64,000 nt of DNA from positions 70,751 to 134,750 of the forward strand of contig JACCXN010000009.1 of assembly GCA_013696965.1 (NCBI GenBank), in the 5' to 3' direction. Below are positions 15,728 to 19,951 of this stretch, one piece after another. A program made the position numbers and the translations under genes. This DNA is from Bacteroidota bacterium (GTDB taxonomy: Bacteria; Bacteroidota; Bacteroidia; JACCXN01). Within the stretch, counting starts at the first letter, position 1. Every line of letters begins with the position of its first letter. Under the pieces are notes generated by a model. That model did no database searches and was not told the DNA's origin. It was given only the letters and a program-made list of their open reading frames with translations.

Positions 15728-16168
15728 ATGAAAAAAACTACATTAATTATCACTTTGTTTTTTTGCAGTTTTGCATTTCATTCAAAAGCATCCACCAGTA
15801 TGTTTGAACTTGATTATGATCTTGTCAGTTCAGAATTAGCTGATCTTTCCGAACTTGAAAATTACCTTTCTATAAATGGAATAGTTTCTTTGGGTGAATT
15901 ATCACTTACTGATAACATAATATTAAAGAAGCTAAATATTTCAAAAGAACTTTCAATGGTATCCCCTAATAACCTTCTCTTTAGAATTGAGGATATGGAA
16001 TGGGGATCTTTCTTTTGGGGATTCTGTTGCTGGCCTATTGGTGTTTTCACCGTCCTTTTGAATGATGACAAAGATAGCAATCACAAAATTTCCTACTTAA
16101 TAGGATTAGGCACTGCTTTCATTGCTTATTCACCTACATTCTTTTTCCGTCCACAAGGATGGAGGTAA
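15728..16168 (+). CDS. Secreted or membrane hypothetical protein, 146 residues
   Basis: The start at 15728 is chosen because the signal peptide MKKTTLIITLFFCSFAF begins there and a TATATTTG element precedes it. A short acidic region follows, then a hydrophobic segment (WGSFFWGFCCWPIGVFTVLL), the linker NDDKDSNHKISY and a second hydrophobic segment (LIGLGTAFIAYSP), so the C-terminal half probably spans the membrane twice. No family is recognised. It stands alone between a promoter and a terminator. The WGFCCWPIG core recalls small Bacteroidota membrane proteins of unknown function. Confidence 0.7.
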   Translation: MKKTTLIITLFFCSFAFHSKASTSMFELDYDLVSSELADLSELENYLSINGIVSLGELSLTDNIILKKLNISKELSMVSPNNLLFRIEDMEWGSFFWGFCCWPIGVFTVLLNDDKDSNHKISYLIGLGTAFIAYSPTFFFRPQGWR

Positions 16169-16194: not shown

Positions 16195-16225
16195 GGGCCG
16201 GCATTTTATTGCCGGCTCTTTTTTT
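16195..16225 (+). terminator. Rho-independent terminator
   Basis: GCCGGC (16197-16202), an 8-base loop, GCCGGC (16211-16216), then a T-rich run. It ends the preceding gene. It also argues that the LolA-like gene starts at ATG 16250, not at the upstream ATG in the hairpin arm. Confidence 0.88.
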
Positions 16226-16249: not shown

Positions 16250-16936
16250 ATGCTTAATACAAGGCATCTTTTAATAATTCTTGGTCTTACACTTTTACAC
16301 TTTACCCAGGCATTTTCTCAGCAGTTTTACCGGATTAAAGCAGATTTTAGTATTAAGGAAAACAAACCGGATGGACAATCCCAATTAATTATGGGCCAGG
16401 TTTATTACGACAAGATTTATAAAAAAATAATTTACGATATAACCTTTCCTGAAAAAGGTGTACTAATTGTAACTGATACAGTGATATACAGGATTGAGAA
16501 CAATAAAGTAATAAGTAAAACTCCAACTGGCAATTTAAATGACTTTTCTGTTTTTCACCTATCCTTAAATGGCGATTTAATCAATTTTGGCCTTAACAAT
16601 TCACCTTACACAATAGGAACCATTGAAAAAAAAGAAAATTTAGTGATTTCCACCTGGATTCCACCTAAAAAATATGCTCATTTATTAGGAAAAACAATAA
16701 TTTCACAAAAAGACAAACGCCTTTTTGGGCTGGTCTTTTTCACGCCAACCGAAGAAATAATAGGCAAGCAATTTTTCAGAAAATACATTAATACAAATGG
16801 ACTGGAATTCCCATCAGAATTGGTACAGGTAACCTATTTTGACAATAAAGAATTTTACAAGATTACCACTTTTAAAAACATTATAATTGATGAATTCAAA
16901 AATGAAAATTTATATAACTATAATCTTCCTGATTAG
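16250..16936 (+). CDS. LolA-like periplasmic protein
   Basis: About 228 residues from ATG 16250, where a signal peptide begins (MLNTRHLLIILGL to AFSQ). The mature part has the curved beta-sheet pattern of LolA/LolB-type proteins: RIKADFSIKE, GQVYYDKIYKKIIYDITFPEKGVLIVTDTVIYRIEN, then late strands. In LolA the domain binds lipoprotein acyl chains. The fold assignment is from pattern, not a firm motif, so the substrate is open. The gene overlaps the start of the yidD homolog by 35 bases, and two TPR proteins follow without gaps, so all four are probably one envelope operon. Confidence 0.65.
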   Translation: MLNTRHLLIILGLTLLHFTQAFSQQFYRIKADFSIKENKPDGQSQLIMGQVYYDKIYKKIIYDITFPEKGVLIVTDTVIYRIENNKVISKTPTGNLNDFSVFHLSLNGDLINFGLNNSPYTIGTIEKKENLVISTWIPPKKYAHLLGKTIISQKDKRLFGLVFFTPTEEIIGKQFFRKYINTNGLEFPSELVQVTYFDNKEFYKITTFKNIIIDEFKNENLYNYNLPD

Positions 16937-17294
16937 TTTTGTCATTCCTTCAATGGTAATGGCACAGTCTACTTTTGAAATCTCAAAAATGAGAGAAGTA
17001 TTGCATCCGCACACCAACAATATTGAATACAGCAGCGCCAAGAACAATACAAATGAAGTAGAGTACATTTTTTCAGGGCTTTTTCTTTTTTACAAAGCTT
17101 TTATTTCTTCCCAGGACGGGCAGTCATGTTCTTTTACCCCTTCGTGTTCTGAATTTGGAATGCAGGCTGTAAAAAAACAAGGACCTATATTAGGTGTTAT
17201 AAATACAATTGATCGTCTTACAAGGTGCAATGGCTTGAGTCCTGAAAAATATAACAGAGATGATAAATCAAAACTCTTACACGACCCTTTATAA
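16902..17294 (+). CDS. YidD-like protein with a signal peptide
   Basis: The ATG at 16902 begins a signal peptide (MKIYITIIFLISFVIPSMVMAQ), though earlier starts at 16887 (TTG) and 16890 (ATG) are in frame. After about 35 residues with low complexity comes a YidD core: FLFYKAFIS, CSFTPSCSEFG, then RLTRCNG. Classic YidD is a short protein encoded near rnpA and yidC that helps membrane protein insertion from the cytoplasmic side. Here the core follows a cleavable signal, so it should lie in the periplasm or at the membrane surface. It overlaps the LolA-like gene and ends on the start codon of the TPR gene. Family firm, role unknown. Confidence 0.85.
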   Translation: MKIYITIIFLISFVIPSMVMAQSTFEISKMREVLHPHTNNIEYSSAKNNTNEVEYIFSGLFLFYKAFISSQDGQSCSFTPSCSEFGMQAVKKQGPILGVINTIDRLTRCNGLSPEKYNRDDKSKLLHDPL

Positions 17295-18112
17295 TGTTTC
17301 TAAGAATTGTCTTTATTTGTATCCTTCTCTTATCAAACATAAGGGTAAAATCTCAGGATTTATTTAACCTGGAAAATTCCACCCAGTTTGCTGATTTTTT
17401 AAAGAGAACCAGGCAATTTGAGCATGCAGCCAGGGAATATGAACGAATTGCCTTTCTTGATGTTCAGAACAATGATATAAGGCTTTCGCTTATCCAAGTG
17501 TATTTTCTTTCCGCAGACTATGCAGAGGCCTTAAAAAAAGCCTCGAAAATATATCAATTCAATCAAAACCTTCCTCGCCTTTTTGCAATGGAATATTCGC
17601 GTTTAATGTTACTTAATGATTCCATTGCCCAATTAAATTCTTTTGTAACAAACAACCCTAATTTACAAATTGAAGATAATAGAAAAATAATAATGTATTC
17701 TTATATGCTAAATGAAAATTGGCAGCAGGCTGAAAAGATCCTAAAACAAATGCCAGAGGAATATTCCGAACACTCACTTGTGATAAAACAGGCTTTAAAT
17801 CAAAAATACAAAAGCCCTTTGCTTGCCACAGGAATGTCTGCAATTATTCCTGGGGCAGGAAAAATATATACAAGAGATTGGAAAGACGGGTTATTTAGTT
17901 TCCTGGCTGTAGGATCATTGGCTTTTCAATCCTACAGAGGATTTTCAAAATATGGTACACAAGCCGGCTCGGGATGGATTTATGGGGGAATTGGAACAGT
18001 GTTTTATGCAGGAAACATTTACGGAACTCACAAAGCTGCAAAAAGGTATAATTCAAAATTAAAAGAAAGTGTTAAGGCAAAAACAAGGCATCTGCTTATT
18101 ACTGGTTTTTAA
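17294..18112 (+). CDS. TPR protein with C-terminal IPGxGxxY membrane domain (first copy)
   Basis: 272 residues. Signal peptide (ending RVKSQ), helical TPR-like repeats over about 30-175 (FLKRTRQFEHAAREYERIAFLD, YFLSADYAEALKKASKIYQFN), then a hydrophobic domain with AIIPGAGKIYTRDWKDGLFSFL and a second segment (GWIYGGIGTVFYAGNIYG). The IPGxGxxY-x2-D-x-K-x-G motif recurs in the next gene and resembles TM2/DUF5683-type membrane domains. Its ATG overlaps the yidD-like stop by one base. Paralogous to the next gene. A scaffold role in the envelope is inferred from TPRs and context. Confidence 0.75.
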   Translation: MFLRIVFICILLLSNIRVKSQDLFNLENSTQFADFLKRTRQFEHAAREYERIAFLDVQNNDIRLSLIQVYFLSADYAEALKKASKIYQFNQNLPRLFAMEYSRLMLLNDSIAQLNSFVTNNPNLQIEDNRKIIMYSYMLNENWQQAEKILKQMPEEYSEHSLVIKQALNQKYKSPLLATGMSAIIPGAGKIYTRDWKDGLFSFLAVGSLAFQSYRGFSKYGTQAGSGWIYGGIGTVFYAGNIYGTHKAAKRYNSKLKESVKAKTRHLLITGF

Positions 18113-18923
18113 AATTGCTTTTGTTTTAAATTTATCCGCTCAGGATATTGAACAAACTCTTGCGCTTGCAAACCAGCAATACGAAAAAGCTCAGTATACT
18201 CAAGCAATAAGTTATTATCAAAGAATACTATTTTTTGATAAAAAAAACTACAATTCACAAATCCACCATCGACTTGCAAATTGTTTTTTCAATACAGGAA
18301 ATTACGAGAAGGCTGCCGAAAGCTACGATATTGCTTGGTATTCCGAGGAAAACGACAGCATAAAAACCGAATTGGTTTTTAAGAAAACATCAAGCCTGCT
18401 GCTTCAAAATAAATTTCAATTTGCGCTAATTGAAATATTAAACCTTAAGGATGATCTATCCATAGATTTTCAAAAACGAAAGGAATTTTATTCGGGAATA
18501 ATCTATTTTGGATTGGAAGATTTTGTACGTTCTGAATCTCATTTCAAATTAGTTTTTTCAGAAAAAGTTTTTGTTAACGAACTTGAAAAACTATTTAAAA
18601 AGAATCAAAAAATTGAAAAATTAAATCCTAAAACCGCGCGAATATTAAGCATGGTAATTCCGGGTTTAGGGCAATTTTATTCAGGAGATATAAAAAACGG
18701 AATTAATTCTTTGTTATTAACCGGATTATTCGCCTATTTATATGTAAATACCGCTATAAATTTTAGTTTTCTGGAAGGTTACTTAATTGTTTTCCCTTGG
18801 TTTCATAGATACTATACTGGCGGATATAAAAGAGCTGGTATAAATACTGAAAAAATAAAATCAAACAAACGTGCTGTAATTTATCAGGAAATTATTACCC
18901 TTATTGAAAAATCAAATAGTTAA
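18069..18923 (+). CDS. TPR protein with C-terminal IPGxGxxY membrane domain (second copy)
   Basis: About 284 residues. The GTG start at 18069 lies inside the previous gene (44-base overlap) after an AAAGAAA-type purine run; the signal peptide follows (LLLVFKIAFVLNLSAQ). TPRs at about 30-110 (ALANQQYEKAQYTQAISYYQRILFFD, HHRLANCFFNTGNYEKAAESYDIAWY), then MVIPGLGQFYSGDIKNGINSLLL and further hydrophobic helices. It has the same layout as the preceding protein, so the pair arose by duplication. It probably works with the YidD-like and LolA-like proteins; the function is not established. Confidence 0.75.
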   Translation: MLRQKQGICLLLVFKIAFVLNLSAQDIEQTLALANQQYEKAQYTQAISYYQRILFFDKKNYNSQIHHRLANCFFNTGNYEKAAESYDIAWYSEENDSIKTELVFKKTSSLLLQNKFQFALIEILNLKDDLSIDFQKRKEFYSGIIYFGLEDFVRSESHFKLVFSEKVFVNELEKLFKKNQKIEKLNPKTARILSMVIPGLGQFYSGDIKNGINSLLLTGLFAYLYVNTAINFSFLEGYLIVFPWFHRYYTGGYKRAGINTEKIKSNKRAVIYQEIITLIEKSNS

Positions 18924-19081: not shown

Positions 19082-19951
19082 ATGAAAAACATTTCCAAAT
19101 TTTCTGCTATATTTATTGTAGTAGTTATTCTGGTGTCCTTTTCTTTTAAAAACAAAAAGGACACTTATAAAATATACGATTCAAAAGGAAAGGAAGTATC
19201 TTATTCTGATGTTTTACTTGCCTCCCAAAAAGCTGAAATAATATTGTTTGGGGAGCTTCATAACAACCCTGTTATTCATTGGATGCAGCTTGAATTGACA
19301 AAAGATTTATATCAGAAAAAACCAAATTTAATAATGGGGGCTGAAATGCTTGAAGCGGATAATCAAATATTACTTAATGAATATCTGACAGGAAAAATAA
19401 CCGAAAAAAATTTCAAGGCTGAAGCTAAATTATGGACAAATCACAATACAGATTATCAGCCATTAGTGAATTTTGCAAAAGAAAATAAATTGTCTTTTAT
19501 AGCCACAAATGTTCCAAGACGATATGCCAGTATGGTATACAGTAAAGGAATTGACGAACTTCAAAGTTTAAGCAATGATGCAAAACAATGGATTGCCCCT
19601 CTACCAATGAAGTATGATTCCACATTAAAGGGTTACAGTGAAATCATTAAGGCTGCCGGTGGCCATGGTGGTGAGAATTTGCCTAAATCTCAAGCATTAA
19701 AAGATGCTACCATGTCCCATTTTATTTTAAAAAACTACAAGCCTGCATATACATTTATTCATTACCATGGATCATACCATTCAAATAATTTCGAAGGTAT
19801 TTATTGGTATTTAAAACAAGAAAAAACTAAACTTAACATTTTAACAATTGCTTCTGTTGAACAACTAAACATTGATTCACTTTCCCAAGAATATTTAAAT
19901 ATGGCTGATTATATTTTTGTAATCCCGGAAAACATGACAAAAACGCATTGA
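19082..19951 (+). CDS. ChaN-family protein (haem-binding type)
   Basis: A 289-residue protein with an N-terminal hydrophobic segment (residues 7-21) that is a signal or anchor, with no lipobox Cys. The body has the ChaN/DUF399 pattern: ILFGELHNNPVIHWMQ, LIMGAEMLEADNQILLNEYLTGKI, FIATNVPRRYAS, and FIHYHGSYHSNNFEGIYWYL near residues 220-240. ChaN of Campylobacter binds haem and is linked to iron uptake. The function here is inferred from family. It overlaps the tag gene at its stop, but no functional link is evident. Confidence 0.85.
   Translation: MKNISKFSAIFIVVVILVSFSFKNKKDTYKIYDSKGKEVSYSDVLLASQKAEIILFGELHNNPVIHWMQLELTKDLYQKKPNLIMGAEMLEADNQILLNEYLTGKITEKNFKAEAKLWTNHNTDYQPLVNFAKENKLSFIATNVPRRYASMVYSKGIDELQSLSNDAKQWIAPLPMKYDSTLKGYSEIIKAAGGHGGENLPKSQALKDATMSHFILKNYKPAYTFIHYHGSYHSNNFEGIYWYLKQEKTKLNILTIASVEQLNIDSLSQEYLNMADYIFVIPENMTKTH

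Follow-up and report, generated by a model that had tools for sequence, protein, structure and literature searches.

An exported YidD with LolA-fold and TPR partners in Bacteroidota: a recurrent gene cassette that tracks small hairpin proteins and may serve them from the periplasmic side

YidD is nearly universal among bacteria and poorly understood; in its ordinary form it is a factor inside the cell that aids the placement of proteins into membranes. TM2 (PF05154) and DUF5683 (PF18935) are membrane domains for which, to our knowledge, no function is established in general. Members of the LolA superfamily (PF03548, PF17131) include LolA3 of P. gingivalis (9tp6), and a LolA paralogue may be dedicated to one locus, as in the flexirubin operon of Flavobacterium johnsoniae, which holds a LolA2-LolB2 pair with flexirubin as its proposed cargo (PMC11885536). 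The locus described here likewise has its own LolA-fold protein; it differs from the flexirubin locus, for which neither YidD nor a TPR protein is mentioned (PMC11885536). Its parts are known folds, and the system they compose is filed under no known one: in the open literature searched, subscription papers lying outside it, we found no description of an exported YidD or of this gene set.

The locus lies in a 64,000-nucleotide stretch of contig JACCXN010000009.1 from a Bacteroidota bacterium, hereafter the window. A sequence-only reading of it had proposed an operon of four genes, LolA-like, YidD and two paralogous TPR proteins. All four are in place, and since each overlaps the next on the sequence itself, by 35, 1 and 44 nt in turn, they form one transcription unit; but the set was incomplete, a fifth gene (UP5) having been missed. 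The features are as follows.

15728..16168, + strand: UP5, a small exported protein with signal peptide, acidic helix and two-helix hydrophobic hairpin; proposed cassette client
16195..16225, + strand: intrinsic terminator between UP5 and the cassette; stem at 16195-16218, 9 bp with 7 G-C pairs, followed by T7
16250..16936, + strand: LolA-fold exported protein (P0001), 228 aa, so assigned from PF17131 in relatives and an AlphaFold2 model
16902..17294, + strand: exported YidD, 130 aa; signal peptide at about residues 1-21, Gln22 at +1, core residues 56-118 (17067-17255)
17294..18112, + strand: TPR1 (P0003), with signal peptide, TPR-like repeats and C-terminal membrane domain
17846..17890, + strand: TPR1 motif IPGAGKIYTRDWKDG, from the sequence and an alignment of relatives
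18069..18923, + strand: TPR2 (P0004), a paralogue of TPR1; the GTG start at 18069 is uncertain
18657..18701, + strand: TPR2 motif IPGLGQFYSGDIKNG, from the sequence and an alignment of relatives

The product of the gene 3' of the cassette (19082-19951) belongs to the ChaN/Tiki-type haem-binding family (PF04187, 189 bits); this gene was not seen among those common to other cassette loci.

The YidD core of the window protein stands above both curated cut-offs, with 64.4 bits against PF01809 (cut-off 27), matched over residues 56-118 behind the signal peptide, and 59 bits against TIGR00278 (cut-off 40), and it shares with ordinary YidD the conserved C-x5-C and the same C-terminal layout. It departs from ordinary YidD in having a signal peptide for export, with Gln at +1, in its partners, which are TPR proteins and a LolA-fold protein, in its position, as neither rnpA nor yidC adjoins the exported gene in the window or at other cassette loci, and in its ancestry. 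In a tree of YidD cores, built without the degenerate row L203, a single branch (SH-aLRT 98) separates 83 exported from 24 canonical sequences. The same genome keeps an ordinary yidD too, about 75 codons long and adjoining rnpA, so that the exported copy is an extra. Across an alignment of 49 exported YidDs the residue directly after the signal peptide is Gln in every one, and Q22, C76 and C82 are invariant, while those of the flavour C described below have no third Cys. A Gln at this place is what the signal peptidase I substrates of Bacteroidetes lead one to expect: about 71% of them expose a Gln that becomes pyroglutamate (PMC5837995, PMC10653852). Moreover, one genome (G111, locus L030) encodes a 400-aa fusion in which a signal peptide is followed by YidD, a TPR region and the IPG membrane domain. 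With a single signal peptide in front of both, the YidD and TPR regions of this protein come to lie on one side of the membrane, the periplasmic one, an arrangement that argues for joint action of the two. Together with the uniform Gln, the fusion bears out the earlier proposal that YidD has been moved across the inner membrane, although the phrase "outer face of the membrane" then used is apt for the periplasmic side and in no other sense. The exported YidDs of flavours B and C, and the fusion, also pass TIGR00278, and since this NCBI equivalog model labels all exported flavours plain YidD, the system has been hidden. Sequence search of the PDB returned no solved YidD structure, and a search for plasmid carriage gave no match covering most of an exported YidD, those listed being partial and resembling ordinary YidD. 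The exported protein could have lost its insertion function. At L226:4654-6301, the gene that lies 5' of the YidD-TPR1 fusion gene and overlaps it encodes a small protein, probably a lipoprotein, whose short hydrophobic segment is rich in Gly (GWFWGNIICGGLVGGAIDLITG); this is perhaps the hairpin partner in the fusion lineage.

The LolA-fold protein of the window, P0001, itself matches nothing in Pfam, PF03548 (LolA) included, nor TIGR00547, but 16 of 40 relatives match PF17131 LolA_like (best 1.1e-6); PF03548 was matched by one of the 40, at an E-value of 0.057 only. Its AlphaFold2 model (pLDDT 95), a LolA-like beta fold of the half-barrel kind, places LolA-superfamily structures first in a comparison with the PDB, among them 3buu (E 3.8e-11) and P. 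gingivalis LolA3 (9tp6, TM 0.60). On the relatives and the predicted model, then, the earlier LolA-like label is well chosen and P0001 is an exported LolA-fold protein, with lipoprotein carriage a putative activity; it nonetheless differs from the solved LolAs, with about 10% identity to them, and in its fixed partnership with an exported YidD. Two separate PF03548 LolA proteins are encoded elsewhere in the same genome. A weak LolA match in genome G051 (L204), where there is no cassette, was treated as an unrelated LolA-like protein.

The two TPR proteins do share the membrane motif IPGxGxxY-x2-D-x-K-x-G that had been claimed for them, in TPR1 and in TPR2 alike, and its P, G and G do not vary among 24 aligned relatives. 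TPR1 has weak TPR matches, with a DUF5683/TM2-like domain seen in its relatives, and TPR2 matches TPR_2 (6.7e-8) and, below the gathering score (19.5 bits against 26.7), DUF5683 (1.1e-3). Among the TPR relatives, at E<=0.01, DUF5683 is found in 10 of 24 and TM2 in 4 of 24, and both TPR proteins probably end in a DUF5683/TM2-like hairpin.

A profile search with the LolA-like family across 395 genomes of the class found 63 places in 57 genomes. Inspection of 62 of these (G710:C16 being left out) revealed an exported YidD adjoining the LolA-like gene at 61 and, in addition, at least one TPR-IPG protein at 60, the one locus that had no YidD being a weak match (E 5e-7). The conserved neighbourhood on which the sequence-only reading had staked its proposal is thus real: dozens of families have the block, synteny is kept within them, and the arrangement in the window is not chance. 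An envelope role is likely. In its plain form the earlier reading takes the block, with YidD outside, for an envelope-assembly module of general use that serves lipoproteins and outer-membrane proteins alike, and it shares this anatomy and this conserved neighbourhood. No more than 57 of the 395 class genomes have the cassette, however, which argues that it is dispensable for general assembly, and it tracks specific small proteins instead, which leaves this reading the least probable of the explanations weighed here.

Three flavours of the cassette can be distinguished: A, that of the window; B; and C, an exported YidD-TPR1-TPR2 block devoid of a LolA-like gene, at 18 loci (L089-L106) in the same phylum outside the class. 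Flavours A and B each have their own family of small hairpin proteins, and this partnership is well supported. UP5, detected with profile A2, occurs in 35 of 35 flavour-A genomes and in 3 of 360 others (Fisher P 5e-47, kinship ignored), the three matches outside flavour A being weak (E 1e-10 to 2e-6). It heads most flavour-A loci, and a Chitinophagales MAG (L003) likewise has it 5' of the cassette. Six of the 35 flavour-A genomes (G412, G426, G480, G581, G677, G710) have it elsewhere than beside the cassette, so that the link is not mere gene order. The flavour-A genomes span 15 families, and in families of mixed state (f1, f60, f66 and f100, for example) the listed genomes that have no flavour A have no UP5 either, an agreement that lessens the worry over phylogeny-uncorrected tests. 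For flavour B the counterpart is a long exported TM2-domain family, present in 25 of 26 flavour-B genomes and in 0 of 369 others (Fisher P 1e-38, kinship ignored) as defined at E<1e-23, a threshold chosen after the scores had been seen. Because the TM2 profile draws on flavour-B neighbourhoods, its scores are biased, and the 20 flavour-B genomes outside its seed were therefore counted separately: the family is present in 19 of them. The UP5 profile was built mostly from flavour-A neighbourhoods. PF05154 is matched by 8 of 10 flavour-B small proteins (best 1.3e-12); they differ from other TM2 proteins in that TM2 comes after a signal peptide and in the strict co-occurrence of the long family with flavour-B cassettes. 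General TM2 proteins, common everywhere at weaker scores, were not counted in this family. Genes of the family adjoin most flavour-B cassettes, in up to three copies. Nine genomes outside the class have an exported YidD (eight of flavour C, one fusion), and in these we found no LolA-like protein of the cassette family and, two weak TM2 matches apart, no small hairpin protein. Flavour C, having neither the LolA-like protein nor the TM2 family, indicates that carrier and hairpin proteins go together. The earlier statement that no function is established for this set continues to hold, but the set has proved larger, with hairpin proteins that track flavours A and B almost without exception.

Common descent of UP5 and the TM2 family is not claimed: a first profile match (93%) came largely from signal peptides, and once these are removed, all that the two have in common is a weak motif of 14 residues (hhalign probability 10%, P 0.003), from which a common recognition element cannot be demonstrated.

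So close an association could mean that UP5 and the TM2 proteins are fixed subunits of a single five-protein envelope complex, such as a channel, anchor or sensor, in which YidD would be a structural subunit on the periplasmic side. The near-perfect co-occurrence speaks for this, as do the usual adjacency of UP5 genes to the block and the TM2/DUF5683-like hairpins that the TPR proteins themselves probably carry. Subunits of fixed stoichiometry would not, on the other hand, be expected to vary in copy number from 1 to 4 and to be sometimes unlinked, as UP5 and TM2 proteins are. Nor would they readily be parted from the cassette by a terminator. The one in the gap between UP5 and the LolA-like gene of the window folds at -18.5 kcal/mol, and among 27 linked loci there are 10, the window included, with a terminator of <= -13 kcal/mol at this place; it is therefore probable that UP5 and the cassette are expressed differently, a disposition that fits an abundant client and a scarce machine. 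We consider the fixed complex unlikely, though UP5 could be a functional co-component instead of a client.

The form of the small proteins bears on two further explanations. Alignment and an AlphaFold2 model of modest confidence (pLDDT 79; helices at 29-49, 91-109 and 116-139) give UP5 a short charged loop between the two helices of its hairpin, and comparison of the model with the PDB produced no fold match. The hydrophobic hairpins of the small proteins are rich in Gly, Trp and Cys and come in multiple diverged copies. With their small size and signal peptides, these traits would suit exported membrane-active peptides of bacteriocin or toxin type, which the cassette exports, stores or neutralises. 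Against such a role, PADLOC defence models matched neither the cassette nor the small proteins, no dedicated exporter or immunity gene was seen at cassette loci, and the block is kept across many families with the in-family synteny noted above, unlike bacteriocin loci; we regard it as very improbable. Hardly more probable is a specialised lipoprotein or lipid route, in which the LolA-like protein would transport acylated cargo and dock at the membrane on YidD and the TPR proteins, the hairpin proteins being incidental partners. It draws on the LolA fold and on the use by Bacteroidota of several LolA paralogues, one pair of them inside the flexirubin operon (PMC11885536). But UP5 and the TM2 small proteins have no lipobox Cys after the signal peptide, the genome already has its two other PF03548 LolA genes, and it is with hairpin proteins that the cassette co-occurs.

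Two residue patterns were observed alongside. In a simple pattern test, Gln at +1 was found in 90% of exported YidDs, 72% of TPR proteins and 55% of LolA-like proteins, and in 10-22% of the small proteins against a background of 15%, so that the rule is mostly followed by the machine parts and not by the proposed clients (UP5, alignment A2; TM2, A3). UP5 and TM2 proteins often have Cys in or near the hairpin, and exported YidDs have the invariant C-x5-C (alignments A2/A3 and A4); client and YidD could conceivably be joined through thiols.

The reading we tentatively prefer, at somewhat less than an even chance, is that the cassette is a chaperone or insertion device working from the periplasmic side and dedicated to small exported hairpin proteins. 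The exported YidD and one or two inner-membrane TPR proteins would form a small membrane complex facing the periplasm, with the soluble LolA-fold protein as carrier. Its clients would be proteins in which a signal peptide is followed by a short acidic stretch and a hydrophobic hairpin of two helices, namely UP5 in flavour A and the TM2 proteins in flavour B. After export by Sec, the LolA-like protein would shield the hydrophobic hairpin, and the YidD/TPR complex, acting from the periplasm, would then help the hairpin to insert or assemble. In this scheme we infer the physical interaction, the direction of transfer, the target membrane and the insertion activity. The existence of flavour C, which has neither carrier nor known hairpin family, counts against it, as do the weakness of the motif common to UP5 and the TM2 family, the modest confidence of the UP5 model and the chance that UP5 is a co-component or that the exported YidD no longer inserts proteins. 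A bolder version, with two parallel flavours of a periplasm-side insertion system, each with its own clients and perhaps delivering alpha-helical hairpins to the outer membrane, is rather doubtful. If the preferred reading is true, it would extend the LolA fold from carrying lipoproteins to hydrophobic polypeptides and would suggest that the assembly of membrane proteins may also start from the periplasm. The strict partnership with hairpin proteins provides a defined candidate client, and with it the function of YidD becomes testable outside its usual Sec/YidC setting.

Some loci depart from the common layouts. At L112, L113, L122 and L126, cassettes of flavours A and B are no more than a few kb apart, and in most cases genes for hairpin proteins adjoin them or stand between them. 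L203 (G531) holds a highly diverged pair of exported YidD and LolA-like genes at which no TPR gene was detected, and an exported TM2 protein is encoded on another contig (L221). Lastly, an exported repeat protein of about 310 aa (cluster C11; about 15 copies, for example L108:8870-9802 and L116:8713-9645) lies beside flavour A and B cassettes, sometimes directly 3' of TPR2, as an occasional sixth component.
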